Below, in pieces: positions 3,195 through 32,212 of a DNA stretch of 34,811 nt. The notes beneath the pieces are model-generated. The model made no database searches. It was given only the letters and a program-made list of their open reading frames with translations, and was not told the origin of the DNA. The first letter of the stretch is position 1, and each line of letters begins with the position of its first letter. The stretch spans positions 1-34,811 of the forward strand of contig CAIMUP010000032.1 in assembly GCA_903844645.1 (NCBI GenBank), read 5' to 3'. The translations under genes were made by a program, and so were the position numbers. Origin of the DNA: an uncultured Bacteroidota bacterium. Lineage in GTDB: Bacteria > Bacteroidota > Bacteroidia > AKYH767-A > JABDAW01.

Positions 3195-3369
3195 GGAAAG
3201 AGGGCGAATACTCGAAAAATATCAGTTATTTGGGAAAAAAGGTATTTATTCATACCCCCGTATTTTGACATGCTACAATTTTTTATTTTCTTATCTGATG
3301 ATATATAAAGTGCTTATTAATACCTTATTAAATGGTATCATGCCATCTTTCTATCTTGCTTTTAGGAAA

Positions 3370-3593
3370 CTGGGGATTGAAAATCCCCAGTGAAGGATTT
3401 GCAATCCCCAGTCGTGGCGTAGTAAGCCCCAGTTGTGGCGTAGTAAGCCCCAGTTGTGGCGTAGTAAGCCCCAGTTGTGGCGTAGCAAGCCCCAGTTGTG
3501 GCGTAGTAATCCCCAGTTGTGGCGTAGTAATCCCCAGTTGTGGCGTAGCAAGCCTCCATCGTGAATTCCAGAGCCTTATTTAGAGGAATGGAA
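3370..3593. repeat. 21-bp-period intergenic array B with conserved tail
   Basis: Nine units of exactly 21 bases occupy 3370-3558. The first is a palindrome: arms CTGGGGATT and AATCCCCAG around a 3-base loop. The second is a decayed version, and units 3-9 share GTGGCGTAG followed by YAAKCCCCAG. The array is followed by a 32-base tail (3562-3593) that recurs, inverted and with 29 of 32 bases identical, at 11100-11131 beside a shorter array of the same palindromic unit. Open frames through the array on both strands simply follow from a period divisible by three. The region 3159-3673 has no gene; the array lies 81-304 bases beyond the stop of hflX. Confidence 0.9.
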
Positions 3594-3673
3594 GATTAAT
3601 TATCGGAATTTGCATCCCTAATTAGGGCTGTGAAGGGAATAATAATGGCTTGGAATGGGAGGAGAAAAGGTTG

Positions 3674-6889: not shown

Positions 6890-7078
6890 TTTTGACAAAA
6901 CAGCAACTTGTTTCGACAAAACACGAAGCTGGTTTTCCTAAAAAGCTTATTGGTTTTCCTAAACAGTTTCGTGGTTTTCCTAAACAGTTTCGTGGTTCTT
7001 TAAAACAGTTTCGTGATTCTTCAAAACAGTTTCATGATTCAACAAAAAAGCTTCGTGGTTTATTAAAACAGGTTTCGA
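6890..7078. repeat. 21-bp-period intergenic array C
   Basis: Nine consecutive 21-base units, all in register. The first two contain TTTTGACAAAAC/TTTCGACAAAAC, the next ones GTTTTCCTAAACAGTTTC, and the last decay toward GTTTATTAAAACAGG. A and T runs within each unit are partly complementary. The array lies in the 453-base gap 6735-7187 between the YdjM-type gene and sufA; the remaining sequence shows only the upstream hairpin and the sufA promoter. Confidence 0.88.
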
Positions 7079-7155
7079 TTTGGATCAAGTTTATCGGTAT
7101 TTCTGTGAAAGAAAATCTTGAGATTACAGCCCTCGAAAATGTCGCGGCATTTTTG

Positions 7156-7514: not shown

Positions 7515-7523
7515 TTGGATTTT

Positions 7524-8969
7524 ATGACATCAGAACAAGAATTATTAGAGCAGGTAGCGAACTCAGAATATAAGTATGGTTTCGTTTCCGATTTTGAATC
7601 AGATGCCGCACCAGCGGGCTTATCAGAGGATATAGTTCGTTTTATTTCTGCTAAAAAAGAAGAGCCGGAATGGTTATTAGAATGGCGTTTGCGAGCCTAT
7701 CGTCATTGGTTGACTTTGGAGGAACCTAATTGGGCAAATATCCATCATCCGCCGATAAATTATCAAGATATTATTTATTATTCTGCCCCGAAAGCCAAGA
7801 AAGTGTTGAACTCTTTGGATGAAGTGGATCCTGAAATGTTGGCAACCTTTGCGAAGCTGGGCATCTCATTAGAAGAGCAGAAGCGACTGACAGGCGTGGC
7901 GGTGGATGCCGTGATTGATAGCGTTTCGGTGAAGACGACCTTTACGGCAAAACTGGGCGAATTAGGGATTATCTTTTGCTCCTTTTCAGATGCCGTGAAG
8001 CATCATCCCAAATTGGTGAGGGAATATCTGGGATCTGTCGTTCCGCATACCGATAATTACTTTGCGGCTTTGAACTCTGCGGTCTTTAGTGATGGATCGT
8101 TTTGCTATATTCCAAAGGGGGTGAGATGCCCTATGGAATTGTCCACTTATTTCAGAATAAACGCCGCCAATACCGGGCAATTTGAACGCACTTTAATCAT
8201 CGCCGATGAAGGAAGTTATGTAAGTTATTTGGAAGGCTGCACTGCGCCCATGCGGGATGAAAACCAGCTACACGCAGCGGTTGTAGAGCTGATTGCTTTG
8301 GAGAACGGGCAGATAAAATACTCCACCGTGCAGAACTGGTATCCGGGAAATAAAGAAGGAATTGGCGGCATCTATAACTTCGTTACCAAGCGAGGAATAT
8401 GTGCCGGCAAAAACTCCAAGATTTCGTGGACACAGGTAGAGACCGGCTCGGCTATCACTTGGAAGTATCCGGGAGTTATCCTGAAGGGTGATAATTCTAT
8501 TGGCGAGTTTTATTCGGTGGCAGTTACCAATAATTACCAGCAAGCTGATACCGGCACCAAGATGATTCATATTGGCAAGAATACTAAGAGTACGATCATC
8601 TCTAAAGGCATCTCCGGCGGAAAGAGCCAGAATAGTTATCGGGGCTTGGTGAAGATTAATAAAAAGGCTACGAATGCCCGTAATTTCTCTCAATGCGACA
8701 GTCTTTTGCTTGGCGATAAATGTGGCGCGCATACCTTTCCTTACCTCGAGGTGAATAATAGTTCTGCCGTGGTAGAGCATGAAGCGACAACATCAAAAGT
8801 GGGAGAAGATCAGATATTTTATTGTAATCAACGCGGTATTTCCACCGAGGATGCCGTCGGTTTAATTGTCAATGGATATTGCAAGGAAGTCTTTAATCAA
8901 TTGCCTATGGAGTTTGCTGTCGAAGCCCAGAAGTTGCTTGCCATTAGCCTCGAAGGCAGCGTCGGGTAA
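7524..8969 (+). CDS. sufB: Fe-S cluster assembly protein SufB
   Basis: SufB, 481 residues, full length. It forms the SufBC(2)D scaffold on which [Fe-S] clusters are assembled in the cytoplasm. The beta-helix core is recognisable by [23 protein letters not shown] (split about 188-210), [19 protein letters not shown] (C239), and the C-terminal block with C391, C400 in CGAHTFPY and H420 in [14 protein letters not shown]. These lie in the segments implicated in cluster assembly. ATG at 7524 is taken rather than a TTG at 7515. In most Bacteroidota sufC and sufD follow at once; here a terminator, repeat array D and an unrelated gene come next. Confidence 0.96.
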
Positions 8970-9200: not shown

Positions 9201-9457
9201 GTGTAAAGGTCATAAAACGGGATCTCTTTTTTGAAAAGGAGATCTCTTTTTTGAAAAGGAAGTCTCTTTTTTGAAAAGGAGATCTCTTTTTTGAAAAGGA
9301 AGTCTCTTTTTTGAAAAGGAAGTCTCTTTTTTGAAAAGGAAGTCTCTTTTTTGAAAAGGAAGTCTCTTTTTTGAAAAGGAAATCTCTTTTTTGAAAAGGA
9401 GATCTCTTTTTTGAAAAGGAAGTCTCGTTTCATAAAACGGAGTCTCGTTTCTGTTTT
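9201..9457. repeat. 20-bp-period intergenic array D
   Basis: Ten near-identical 20-base units (9221-9420) of the form RRTCTCTTTTTTGAAAAGGA, in which CTCTTTT and AAAAGGAG can pair. On both sides stand edge units containing CATAAAACGG (9211-9220 and 9431-9440), followed by GATCTC or AGTCTC. It is the only array with a 20- rather than 21-base unit. It lies in the 610-base gap 8970-9579, together with the sufB hairpin, its terminator and the promoter of the next gene. Confidence 0.93.
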
Positions 9458-10266: not shown

Positions 10267-11016
10267 ATGTTACAGATAAAAGATTTAAAAGTTTCCATTG
10301 AAGGAAAAGAGATTCTGAAAGGGATAAATTTAGAAATAAATAAAGGCGAAGTCCATGCCATTATGGGACCTAATGGCTCTGGCAAAAGTACCTTGGCAGC
10401 CGTACTTGCTGGTAGGGATGAATATGAGGTGACGGATGGCGAGGTGATTTATAATGGCAAAGATTTGTTGGAATTATCCCCCGAAGACCGTGCTCGGGAA
10501 GGCATCTTTCTTGCCTTTCAATACCCTGTCGAGATTCCGGGAGTATCCACCGCGAATTTTATGAAGACTGCCGTGAATGAAAAACGCAAGTATCATGGCT
10601 TGGAACCGTTGGATTCCAAAGATTTCTTAGTCGTGATGAAAGAGAAAATGAGGCTCGTCGAATTGGATAAATCGCTCACCAGCCGTGCCGTAAATGAGGG
10701 CTTCTCTGGCGGAGAAAAGAAGCGGAATGAAATCTTCCAAATGGCAATGCTGGAGCCGCAATTAGCTTTGTTAGATGAGACCGATAGCGGCTTGGATATT
10801 GATGCTTTGCGCATCGTCGCGAATGGGGTTAATAAATTAAAAACTACCGAAAATGCCGTCATCGTCGTAACCCATTACCAGCGATTGTTGGATTATATTA
10901 TTCCCGATTTCGTGCATGTTTTATTCGATGGCAGAATAGTAAAATCAGGGGGTAAGGAACTGGCTCTCGAATTGGAAGAGAGGGGCTACGATTGGATAAA
11001 ATCGATCCCCGTTTAA
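10267..11016 (+). CDS. sufC: Fe-S cluster assembly ATPase SufC
   Basis: SufC, 249 residues, the ABC-type ATPase of the SufBCD scaffold. Walker A GPNGSGKST (34-42), Q-loop region FLAFQYP (81-87), signature FSGGEKKR (146-153), Walker B plus D-loop LALLDETDSGLD (166-177, the SufC-typical DETDSGLD) and H203 are all intact. Its partners SufD and the cysteine desulfurase SufS, which usually follow, are absent; instead there is a strong terminator and the convergent efflux operon. They must be encoded elsewhere if the pathway is complete. Confidence 0.97.
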   Translation: MLQIKDLKVSIEGKEILKGINLEINKGEVHAIMGPNGSGKSTLAAVLAGRDEYEVTDGEVIYNGKDLLELSPEDRAREGIFLAFQYPVEIPGVSTANFMKTAVNEKRKYHGLEPLDSKDFLVVMKEKMRLVELDKSLTSRAVNEGFSGGEKKRNEIFQMAMLEPQLALLDETDSGLDIDALRIVANGVNKLKTTENAVIVVTHYQRLLDYIIPDFVHVLFDGRIVKSGGKELALELEERGYDWIKSIPV

Positions 11017-18649: not shown

Positions 18650-18660
18650 ATGCTCGGACA

Positions 18661-18807
18661 GTCTTGTAAGGATAGAAGACCGTCTTCTAAGGATAGAAGA
18701 CGGTCTTCTAAGGATAGAGGACGGTCTTCTAAGGATAGAGGACGGTCTTGTAAGGATAGAAGACCGTCCTGTAAGGATAGAAGACTGTCTTGTAAGGATA
18801 AACTGTC
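18661..18807. repeat. 21-bp-period intergenic array E
   Basis: Seven 21-base units in register. Each has GTCTTC or GTCTTG, then TAAGGATA, then GAAGAC or GAGGAC, so most units are small hairpins with a 6-bp stem and 8-base loop. The last unit (18787-18807) is degenerate. It lies in the 523-base gap 18517-19039; the stretch 18808-19039 after it holds only a weak AGCCGA/TCGGCT inverted repeat. The nearest gene end is that of the gene at 19040. Confidence 0.9.
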
Positions 18808-24932: not shown

Positions 24933-25166
24933 ACCATAAGATAGTTTCCCTACGGTATGGCGAGTGCTCGCGGATGCGTCAGGAAACTTCCTGAAGGTAT
25001 GGCGAGCGTTCGCGGGTGCGTCAGGAAACTTCCTGAAGGTCTGGCGAGTGTTCGCGGGTGCGTCAGGAAACTTCCTGAAGGTCTGGCGAGCGTTCGCGGA
25101 TGCGTCAGGAAACTTCCTGAAGGTCTGGCGAGCGTTCGCGGGTGCATCAGGAAACTATCTTATGGT
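24933..25166. repeat. 42-bp (2 x 21) array F bracketed by 17-bp inverted repeats
   Basis: Five copies of a 42-base unit (24954-25163), each made of two 21-base halves with different palindromes: GCGAG..CTCGC-type in one half, CAGGAAACTTCCTG in the other. The whole array is enclosed by a perfect 17-base inverted repeat, ACCATAAGATAGTTTCC (24933-24949) and its reverse complement (25150-25166); the right copy is a diverged version of the second half-unit. It is the only array lying between two divergent gene starts. Gap 24738-25325 holds nothing else but promoters. Confidence 0.93.
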
Positions 25167-28674: not shown

Positions 28675-30282
28675 ATGAACACGAAGAAAATTTGGGTGAT
28701 AATAATTACGATGACCATTGCCTTGGTAGGAGTAATAATGGTGCAATTATTTTGGATTGATAATGCAATAAAAGTCAGGCATGAACAATTTGTCAATAAA
28801 GTAAATGATGCCATGAATTGTGTAGTGAATAAATTGGAAACACAAGAAGCGTTTACCGCTATTACCAAGCAAATTCCGCCTATTGCGTATGATACCACAA
28901 CAGTTGATAACAAATATCTTGACCCTGTGCCTGATTTGATTTCTCCTTTTTTTGATGGGATGATGATTCCTGATATAGGGATTAATGATTCTGAAATAAA
29001 CATCAGTCTGCGCAAACATCCGATGATGAAAAATGGGGATGCACACTTTCATTTTACCGATTCAACAATAGTTGAGGGTATCAACAATAATAAAAAGAAG
29101 GTGATTCATTCTATCAATGATTCGGTTCAATATTATTTGAAACAAAGTATGAGTATCGTGAACTCAAAGATGAATAAGTTGAGCGAAGTGATGCAAAAGA
29201 TGGCTTCTGAATTTTTGCAAGGTGATGACAATATCGCCCACCGAATCAATAAAGAGCATCTCGAGAAGTTGATACAAAGCGAAATGGTGGATCATAACCT
29301 TCATTCTAAATGTATCTACGGTATCGTGAATGAAAAGGAGAATAAAGTGATCCTCTCTCAAGAAGAAAATGAGAATGAGAATAAGAACCTGTTGGAGTCT
29401 AATTATAAGGTGCAGTTATTTCCCAATGATATCTTCCTTCATCCCGATTATTTGGTGCTTTATTTTCCTGGTAGTAAGACTTGGGTTATTAGGAGGTTAT
29501 GGGGCATGATGTTACTGTCGCTGTTGTTCACCTTGATTATCATTATTGCTTTTACCTATACCATTTTTATCATCTTCAAGCAAAAGAAAATATCGGATAT
29601 TAAGACTGATTTCATTAATAACATGACCCATGAATTTAAAACCCCGATAGCTACTATTTCTCTTGCGGTGGACTCTATTAAAAATCCGAAAGTGTATGAG
29701 AACAAAGAAAAAATTCAATACTTTGCAGGGATTATAAAAGAGGAAAACAACAGGATGAACCTGCAAGTGGAGCAAGTATTGAAGATTGCATTGCTGGATA
29801 GAGGGACTATAAAACTTAACCTCGAAAAGACGGATGTCCATGAATTAATTAGTAAGGCGGTAGAGAAAATTAACCTGCAAGTAGAGCAACGAAATGGAAC
29901 CATTATTCAGAAGATGGAGGCGACGGAGCACCTGATAATGGCTGATGCCGTTCATCTTACAAATATGATTTTTAACTTGCTTGATAATGCCAATAAATAC
30001 TCCCCTCATCATCCCGAAATAGTTATTGCGACACGCAACATTAACAAAGGTATTTGCATCGTAGTAATAGATAAAGGTATTGGGATGAGCAAAGACATAC
30101 AAAAGAAAATCTTCGAGAAGTTTTATCGGGTTCCGACCGGAAATCTGCATGATGTAAAGGGTTTTGGATTAGGATTAAGCTATGTAAAGCTGTTAGTAGA
30201 AGCCCACAAGGGCAGCATTTCCGTGCATAGCGAACTCAATGAAGGCAGTACGTTTGAAATTTTTCTTCCTATAGAACAATGA
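28675..30282 (+). CDS. Membrane sensor histidine kinase (HisKA/HATPase)
   Basis: A 535-residue sensor kinase similar in layout to the Bacteroidota RprX type. Membrane helix 1 is at about 6-27, an extracytoplasmic sensor region at 28-272 with no recognised domain, and membrane helix 2 at about 275-300. The HisKA box MTHEFKTPIATI carries the phospho-acceptor H319. The ATPase has an N-box (NMIFNLLDNANKYS), G1 DKGIGM, F-box FEKFYRV and G2 GFGLGLSYVK. The cognate OmpR-type regulator follows after 51 bases on the same strand. Signal unknown. Confidence 0.95.
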   Translation: MNTKKIWVIIITMTIALVGVIMVQLFWIDNAIKVRHEQFVNKVNDAMNCVVNKLETQEAFTAITKQIPPIAYDTTTVDNKYLDPVPDLISPFFDGMMIPDIGINDSEINISLRKHPMMKNGDAHFHFTDSTIVEGINNNKKKVIHSINDSVQYYLKQSMSIVNSKMNKLSEVMQKMASEFLQGDDNIAHRINKEHLEKLIQSEMVDHNLHSKCIYGIVNEKENKVILSQEENENENKNLLESNYKVQLFPNDIFLHPDYLVLYFPGSKTWVIRRLWGMMLLSLLFTLIIIIAFTYTIFIIFKQKKISDIKTDFINNMTHEFKTPIATISLAVDSIKNPKVYENKEKIQYFAGIIKEENNRMNLQVEQVLKIALLDRGTIKLNLEKTDVHELISKAVEKINLQVEQRNGTIIQKMEATEHLIMADAVHLTNMIFNLLDNANKYSPHHPEIVIATRNINKGICIVVIDKGIGMSKDIQKKIFEKFYRVPTGNLHDVKGFGLGLSYVKLLVEAHKGSISVHSELNEGSTFEIFLPIEQ

Positions 30283-30333: not shown

Positions 30334-31029
30334 ATGAACATACTTTTAGTAGAAGACGACCCTAATTTCGGAACCGTTCTGAAGGATTATCTGGAATTAA
30401 ATGATTACACCGTCCGCCTCTGCGTTGATGGTAAAGAAGGAGTCAATGCATTCCAAAACAAGCTCTATGACCTCTGTATCTTGGATGTGATGATGCCCCG
30501 AAAAGACGGATTCACCGTCGCTACGGAGATTCGCGTGATGGATGAAGACGTGCCGATTATTTTTCTCACCGCCAAGACGATGAAGGAAGATATGTTGAAA
30601 GGATTCGAGGTGGGAGCCGATGATTATATCATCAAACCCTTCGATTCAGAGTTGTTATTGGCAAAGATTAAAGCCATCTTGAAACGGTCTGACGACGAGC
30701 GTAGCCAACTAAAGAAACAAAATGAATTCACTTTCGGCAAGTTCCATCTGAATTACAAGCTCCGCACTCTCACCATCGGGGAAAAGAAGACCCGATTGTC
30801 GCCCAAAGAAAACGATTTGTTGAGGTTGTTTATCCTTGATATGAATGATGTTTTATCCAGAGAAAAAGCGTTGCTTACGATATGGGGGCATGATGATTAC
30901 TTCACTACGCGCAGCATGGATGTGTATATCACGAAGCTGCGAAAAATCCTTAAAGACGACCCTTCGATAGATATTATCAATATCCATGGAAACGGCTATC
31001 GGATGGTGGATGGAAACAGCGATCAATAA
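30334..31029 (+). CDS. OmpR/PhoB-family response regulator
   Basis: A 231-residue regulator. Receiver domain with D8-D9, phosphoacceptor D51 in LCILDVMMPRKDGF, T79 and K101-P102. The C-terminal winged helix (about 130-228) ends in the typical pattern SREKALLTIWGHDDYFTTRSMDVYITKLRKIL then INIHGNGYRMV. With the kinase just upstream it forms a two-component system resembling RprX/RprY. No intrinsic terminator follows; array G begins about 100 bases beyond the stop. Confidence 0.95.
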   Translation: MNILLVEDDPNFGTVLKDYLELNDYTVRLCVDGKEGVNAFQNKLYDLCILDVMMPRKDGFTVATEIRVMDEDVPIIFLTAKTMKEDMLKGFEVGADDYIIKPFDSELLLAKIKAILKRSDDERSQLKKQNEFTFGKFHLNYKLRTLTIGEKKTRLSPKENDLLRLFILDMNDVLSREKALLTIWGHDDYFTTRSMDVYITKLRKILKDDPSIDIINIHGNGYRMVDGNSDQ

Positions 31030-31130: not shown

Positions 31131-31413
31131 TTTGGAGATAAATCATAAAATTCCGGACATAGAAACCGATTTTTTGGAGATAAGGCTCGGGATTTTGGAG
31201 ATTGTATGCCGACATTTGGAGATTCGGACGAATAGTTTGGAGTTTCATACGAGTTATTCTTTCCGGAAATTCATCCCCGTCTCCAAATCTTTGATTAATG
31301 TCTCCAAACGACCGATCTGAATCTCCAAACTTCGGAGCTAAAACTCCAAATAATCCCCAAACGACTCCAAATAGTTGATATAAAGCTCCAAAAGGTTGAT
31401 ATAAAACTCCAAA
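31131..31413. repeat. 21-bp-phased array G with internal reversal of the core
   Basis: TTTGGAG begins at 31131, 31173, 31194, 31215 and 31236 (a decayed TCCGGAC fills 31152). After a centre holding TTCCGGAA (31261-31268) the reverse complement CTCCAAA begins at 31281, 31302, 31323, 31344, 31365, 31386 and 31407. All steps are 21 bases (or 42). The 14 bases between cores differ from unit to unit. In RNA each left core could pair with a right core. The gap 31030-31660 also contains a possible promoter (TTG at 31537, TACTTTTA at 31556-31563); no gene was accepted there. Confidence 0.92.
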
Positions 31414-31660
31414 CTCTTAGACGGAAAATCCGCATTATGCGCTGTAAATGAGGCTATTTGAAAACGGAGGTAAAATTGGGGGGTCAAGGATTCGTTTTTT
31501 CCTGCTTTTGGCTAATGAAATTCCCCTTAAAAAACATTGTTTTGCCAAGTTTTTATACTTTTACCGCGTTGAACAAAAAGGGAGTTCCTGAAAATCCCTC
31601 AAAGAGTAAGGCGCGGAAACCGAAAAGCGAAGAGAGTAGGCACGGAATAAATATTTAATA

Positions 31661-32212
31661 ATGAAACTTACAAAACTAAAAACACTACTTTTTACCTTCT
31701 TGATAGCGACCGCATTATTTGGGAGTAATCAAGCACCATCATCGGGCAACGCGAACCCTGCGGAAGGGAATTCGGCACCGTCCTCTGCGTCTCCTCCTAC
31801 GATTAATACACCGCCTCCATCGCCGATTAACTCGGTCGTGAATGCCGATCAACCGCCCGAAGCACCGTCTGAATTAAAACAGTTTATCTTGCCGGGTATG
31901 GTATTGTTTTTTGGACTTGCCATCTTTATTTTACTGTCTTTTAAGAACCGGCATAACCATACGAGCGACTTAAAGATAGAGAGTTTTACATTAATTATAA
32001 TAGGGGTATTATTTATTATATCTACCACCAGTTCGTCTAACTTTGCACAGAATGTTGTTCCGCTTTATGCCCCTGCATTTGGGCTTCTCGGAACTATTGC
32101 GGGATATATTTTGGGCAAAAGTTCGGAACCTGTATCAACCAAGAAGGAATTGGCAATCCCTTCTAAAAAAGACGCCTCTATATTTCCATCTAAAGAAACT
32201 ATTGAACCATAA
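31661..32212 (+). CDS. Small membrane protein with Pro/Ser-rich N-terminal segment
   Basis: A 183-residue protein, family not recognised. Signal peptide (MKLTKLKTLLFTFLIATALFG), an exported Pro/Ser/Asn-rich segment (about 25-70), three membrane helices (about 75-91, 107-123, 132-150) and a short polar tail. First of three closely spaced co-directional genes: the next gene starts 10 bases after its stop and purB 18 bases later. Function unknown. Confidence 0.8.
   Translation: MKLTKLKTLLFTFLIATALFGSNQAPSSGNANPAEGNSAPSSASPPTINTPPPSPINSVVNADQPPEAPSELKQFILPGMVLFFGLAIFILLSFKNRHNHTSDLKIESFTLIIIGVLFIISTTSSSNFAQNVVPLYAPAFGLLGTIAGYILGKSSEPVSTKKELAIPSKKDASIFPSKETIEP

Follow-up and report, generated by a model that had tools for sequence, protein, structure and literature searches.

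Mirrored TTTGGAG array and neighboring features

The window is the whole stretch of contig DNA that was analyzed, 34,811 nucleotides from an uncultured Bacteroidota bacterium. A mirrored array of TTTGGAG cores (31131–31413) lies between an OmpR-type response regulator gene and an ORF, and other tandem arrays precede it. The features are:

1–345, array in which three motif types follow one another without a break in the 21-bp register; in-place inversion of ACCAAGGT to ACCTTGGT
3338–3616, 21-bp array; dispersed relative on contig C16 (L150), 82% identical over 319 bp
6930–7119, 21-bp array upstream of ORF 7188
9223–9430, exceptional array of period 20, 10.4 copies
18657–18800, 21-bp array; unit with 7-nt inverted arms, GTCTTCT-AAGGAT-AGAAGAC
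24954–25156, 42-bp array of two alternating palindromes, GCGAGCGTTCGC and TCAGGAAACTTCCTGA
30334–31029, forward strand, flanking gene for an OmpR-type response regulator; partner kinase at 28675–30282
31131–31242, forward strand, left block of six 21-bp cells with TTTGGAG cores, the second cell degenerate (TCCGGAC)
31257–31266, centre cell without a core; paralogues keep TTCTTTYC, not TTCCGGAA
31278–31413, reverse strand, right block of seven cells, NNNCTCCAAA, on a grid common with the left block
31414–31473, tail of about 60 bp kept in five of five TTTGGAG copies (CTCTTAGACGGAAAATCCGCATTATGCGCTGTAAAT...)
31661–32212, forward strand, flanking ORF with no Pfam match

The period of the array at 9223–9430 is exactly 20, and the array occupies the gap between a SufB-like ORF (7515–8969) and a SufC-like ORF (10267–11016), both likenesses being judged by sequence. 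The response regulator and the kinase have their nearest matches in Bacteroidetes genomes. An Rfam DUF805b RNA motif (31610–31642; 36.9 bits, above gathering) lies just upstream of the ORF at 31661–32212. The ORF at the contig end (33989–34522) resembles, by eye, phage-type DNA-binding regulators. The earlier note missed the other 21-bp arrays, which occupy most of the longer gaps of the window.

The TTTGGAG cores start at 31131, 31173, 31194, 31215, and 31236, and the slot at 31152 of the left block holds the degenerate core. The CTCCAAA cores start at 31281, 31302, 31323, 31344, 31365, 31386, and 31407. The exact 21-bp step across five TTTGGAG and seven CTCCAAA cores, reported in the earlier note, was confirmed by position and by a shuffle control; the pair pattern TTTGGAG-N14-TTTGGAG occurs nine times in the window compared to 0 in 100 dinucleotide shuffles. 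With 10-bp sites (TTTGGAG plus 3), one unbroken 21-bp grid spans the strand switch with slots at 31131 + 21k (k = 0–13), and slot 31278 of the right block is 31131 + 7 × 21. Judged by these positions, the sites flip in place at the strand switch and the grid is kept. The cores are symmetric about 31261.5, a point 3 bp off the middle of TTCCGGAA. The array falls within the prokaryotic satellite/minisatellite class, which is defined as at least four tandem copies of a 10–200-nt unit. It does not match a CRISPR array, in which repeats of about 21–48 bp alternate with unique spacers of similar length and cas genes are present; here the core is 7 bp, the spacer 14 bp, and the strand switches inside the array.

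Dispersed TTTGGAG paralogues

The TTTGGAG family consists of the window copy and four dispersed paralogous copies. The mirrored form recurs on contigs C52, C94, and C121, all with the right-block slots 7 × 21 from the left start, and a partial copy is found on C45. The alignment of four copies spans 296 columns (296 bp) and needs no gap. Core identity between copies is 0.90 in the left block and 0.99 in the right, compared to spacer identities of 0.51 and 0.66, and 43 of 52 cores are exact. The sole length difference within the array of the fifth copy is one whole 21-bp unit. The tail beside the right block is common to all five copies, and the comparison of the five found no common left end. 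In the C121 right block, AAA follows the core in all but the two end units and the remaining spacer varies by position, a pattern that supports a site of about 10 bp. The window array is a diverged member of this family, in which the spacers have changed further than the 7-bp core, and the 21-bp register and the strand switch persist.

The paralogues bear on several claims of the earlier note. It proposed an ordered array of asymmetric DNA sites with a strand switch, and this description holds up, with cores, 21-bp phase, and switch all retained in the diverged copies. It also had the sites converge on a special centre. That part is not supported: TTCTTTYC just before TTCCGGAA is conserved in the paralogues, TTCCGGAA itself is not, and the same architecture is found in dispersed copies. 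The 14-bp spacers, called unrelated, are not wholly so; they look like one unit whose copies have drifted apart, and, compared at matching positions, they are conserved between the paralogues. The note would have taken orthologous gaps with the cores but without phase or switch as a refutation. Applied to the paralogues, this check was passed, as they keep both; the G001 gap orthologous to the window array contains no array.

A genus-specific class of 21-bp arrays

In this genome (G000), 230 of 247 tandem arrays of at least 63 bp have a period of 21, 42, 63, or 84 (about 93%) in a census of 1.08 Mb, taken from stretches covering about 28% of the genome, some picked for TTTGGAG and many beginning at contig ends, which are rich in arrays, so that the sample is not random. 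The density is about 212 arrays per Mb, which extrapolates from the 1.08 Mb to roughly 800 arrays per genome. Periods that are multiples of 21 account for 33/33 arrays in the congener G001 and 55/82 in G002. Other periods are commoner in G002 (27/82) than in G000 (17/247). No such arrays were detected in 98 kb of the sister genus (G003) or in 1.45 Mb from 80 named Bacteroidota loci, and other members of the order yielded one 42-bp array in about 248 kb. Within an 18% sample of the genome, 93 of 142 arrays have no relative and 49 have one. By these comparisons, most arrays carry their own sequence and 21 bp is nearly universal. On the same comparisons, the window array is one of a genome-wide class of DNA minisatellites that lie between genes, are specific to this genus, and hold fast to a 21-bp step; the sequence is particular to each array or small family. 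The length of 21 bp corresponds to two turns of the DNA helix.

A chromosomal partition or centromere site has one motif at one or a few loci per replicon. The centromere- or partition-like site suggested in the earlier note does not fit a genome with around 200 arrays per Mb of mostly unrelated sequence, and a partition role for the window array is unlikely.

The genus assemblies are fragmented. Several contigs start or end inside 21-bp arrays (the window at 1–345, L110 at 1–169 and 7572–7735, L118 at 1–124, L122 at 1–244, and L123 at 1–244), indicating that the assembly breaks there. Several arrays also have a different dispersed element beside them, an inverted repeat about 50 bp in length (CAAGCATCCTGACAGGCAATCGCCCCTTCGCGATTTCCTGTCAGGATGCTTG; L122:10426–10477, and similarly in L148, L116, L113, L109, and L108).

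Placement between genes and turnover

About 91% of array bases are intergenic compared to 16% of the sample. Arrays occupy about 72% of the intergenic gaps of at least 300 bp whatever the gene orientation (convergent 22/27, divergent 27/34, tandem 42/65) and none of the 327 gaps below 200 bp, the gene calls for this gap census coming from a simple hexamer model. Their presence in gaps of all orientations argues against terminators or promoters as a common role. The three G000 arrays with a comparable gap in G002 are all absent there, and the gaps at these sites measure 481, 356, and 360 bp in G000 compared to 145, 60, and 107 bp in G002. Arrays are gained and lost from one congener to another, in one case along with about 100 bp of surrounding DNA.

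Symmetry, phase, and substitutions

Dyad symmetry exceeds that of column-permuted controls in about 40% of arrays. The excess lies 2.5–7.5 bp from the dyad, and the dyad recurs every 21 bp. The pattern is repeated in G001; the G002 sample is only 15 arrays. Palindromy of every unit as a universal rule was rejected on the same 40% figure. Within-unit compensated changes across the even dyad number 60 compared to 30 expected in a count that enters related units repeatedly, with no excess across the second dyad. Counting each compensated pair type once leaves 58 extra in 19 of 40 arrays.

A single-base phase break is absent from 94 of 105 arrays, a result inflated by the preference of TRF for gap-free arrays; the gap-free paralogue alignment is unaffected by this preference. 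Substitutions number 1418 compared to 34 indel calls, and the latter are mostly paired. No 10.5-bp sub-period was detected inside the units, either in the sequence or in the A+T/G+C pattern. Most diverged arrays do not have contiguous conserved columns, and a clear core may therefore be a peculiarity of the TTTGGAG family.

Proposed DNA-level docking slots

We favor, at a probability of about 45%, the interpretation that the arrays serve at the DNA level as docking slots facing one side of the helix. The array would work as DNA, and a putative protein would dock on each slot of about 10 bp (TTTGGAGNNN). Slots two helical turns apart would present the same face of the duplex and place the bound molecules in a row, and such a row could bridge or stiffen intergenic DNA. 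If a slot can be filled in either orientation, the lattice would survive in-place inversion. In the TTTGGAG family, the conservation of the core and the exactness of the register point toward DNA sites that share a helical face. The predominance of 21-bp multiples in all three genomes, the rarity of phase breaks, the dyad excess every 21 bp in two genomes, the indifference to gap orientation, and the lack of an RNA signal or codon periodicity described below are also consistent with docking. The sequences differ between arrays and their positions turn over, so the role is probably global and redundant. It would then probably be one in nucleoid architecture or insulation rather than the control of a particular neighboring gene. 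Several results count against docking. Mostly unrelated arrays could not be read by any single sequence-specific protein, a well-preserved period-20 array sits within the window, the units have no 10.5-bp sub-period, the conserved columns of most diverged arrays are non-contiguous, and three of three testable arrays are missing at the orthologous G002 gap.

Alternative origins

Satellites free of function are the strongest alternative and only somewhat less probable than docking. Replication slippage would make the tandem arrays. Palindromic units would come from template switching between short inverted repeats, which would also repair both arms together and invert segments in place, and the 21-bp step would be inherent in this machinery. 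Arrays would be gained and lost without any function for the host. Compensated palindromes, in-place inversions, and fast turnover fit slippage plus template switching, and the mostly unrelated sequences agree with such an origin. Template switching homogenizes inverted-repeat arms and inverts the spacers (PMC8604942), and compensatory changes can arise in this way (PMC8794818). SbcC and SbcD, whose absence would suit this origin, gave no match above the curated cut-off in 15 genomes of the order (G000–G014), with Bacteroides ihuae among the matching controls. However, they fall below the cut-off in array-free members as well; the result is not discriminating, and SbcCD loss was rejected as a genus-specific cause. 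This origin does not account for a single 21-bp step across some 800 arrays, and it leaves unexplained how cores at 90–99% identity outlasted the spacers in gap-free alignments. Docking and a mutational origin are compatible, since a lattice may retain part of the arrays that a mutational process may make. Neither explains well a common 21-bp step with free sequence.

A transcribed RNA, with hairpins inside the units or one long hairpin from both blocks, is improbable. The earlier note suggested that the blocks pair as RNA. The hairpin part of this suggestion is borne out by prediction, with fold z-scores of −4.4, −5.1, and −4.4 in three copies (−4.4 for the window array), and many arrays are dyad-symmetric. 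The selection that such an RNA would leave is not seen. Watson-Crick pairing of facing spacers is 0.418 within a copy compared to 0.390 between copies, which means no coevolution of the arms, and G-U pairs on the sense strand equal A-C (29 versus 27) with no preference. The alifold covariation term is unfavorable (+1.06), and divergent gaps hold arrays equally often. The strong predicted hairpins arise because the cores are mirrored, and they are no evidence of RNA selection. A structured RNA family was rejected, as the array has no Rfam match and no compensatory changes with G-U intermediates.

The spread of the arrays by mobile, MITE-like elements that carry minisatellites has a similarly small chance of being correct. 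The tail outside the array in five TTTGGAG copies, the 49 of 142 arrays with a relative in the 18% sample, and the three empty sites in G002 would be expected of such elements. However, the family has no common left end, 93 of 142 arrays are singletons in the sample, and the single Y1 transposase match in G000 is short. The Y1/RAYT matches in G001 contain stops and those in array-free G003 are full-length. A RAYT/Y1 transposase was rejected as the maker of the arrays, no intact copy being present in array-bearing G000 or G001.

An artefact of short-k assembly is very improbable. Several contigs end in arrays and k = 21 is common in assemblers, but the units are diverged rather than identical, the arrays are 91% intergenic, and they are seen in three separate assemblies of the genus and not in the sister genus or the 80 named loci. 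Least probable of all, arrays encoding heptad-repeat (coiled-coil) peptides (21 bp being 7 codons) can draw on the Leu-Glu heptad frame of TTG GAG and an open frame in 97% of arrays compared to 89% of controls, but the substitutions have no codon periodicity (maximum share 0.487 versus 0.506 in controls) and several aligned copies, on reading, have stop codons in the heptad frame.

Relation to known repeats

REP elements and BIMEs are intergenic palindromic units of about 20–40 nt in alternating orientation. REPs have one sequence per genome and are associated with RAYT transposases. The present arrays are unlike them, as they differ in sequence and the Y1 match in G000 is short.

BrickBuilt is the nearest published case that we found. 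This minisatellite-MITE of Porphyromonas gingivalis, also of the Bacteroidota, has 23-nt units of one sequence in 19 copies (PMC4596501). It resembles the present arrays in being intergenic, with units of about two turns and dispersed copies that share a conserved tail outside the repeats (PMC4596501). It differs in having one sequence, a leader, a tail, and terminal inverted repeats, whereas here there are hundreds of mostly unrelated arrays at a fixed 21 bp. The arrays were not classed as a BrickBuilt-type MITE, since 93 of 142 are without a relative in the sample and there is no one genome-wide repeat sequence.

Prokaryotic satellites are likewise scattered tandem repeats of a 10–200-nt unit in at least four copies, with mixed periods and top densities of 89 per Mb in Methanosarcina vacuolata and 23 per Mb in bacteria (Subirana and Messeguer 2019; PMC6749651). 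The present arrays have one period and a density of about 212 per Mb, figures that are only roughly comparable to the survey because software and thresholds differ. TAACTGA heptamer repeats of Beggiatoaceae, cyanobacteria, and a few Bacteroidetes also form many short intergenic sets of direct repeats, but they use one fixed 7-mer (PMC4679880), whereas the present arrays hold the period constant and vary the sequence. We found no description of a class of arrays that share a period but not a sequence in the mainly open-access literature.

Significance

Hundreds of arrays that share a two-turn length and have unmatched sequences require a ruler, which could be the mutation machinery or a DNA-binding lattice. 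We know of no described bacterial ruler of the 21-bp kind. An array-free sister genus is close by, and the cause is therefore mappable. A bolder interpretation, which we consider doubtful, is that the cell reads geometry and not sequence, with a protein lattice on a two-turn, 21-bp grid of two-fold symmetric slots organizing intergenic DNA across the chromosome. If so, repetition or dyad symmetry on the grid would be all that a sequence needs, and individual arrays would appear, change, and be lost against a constant grid.
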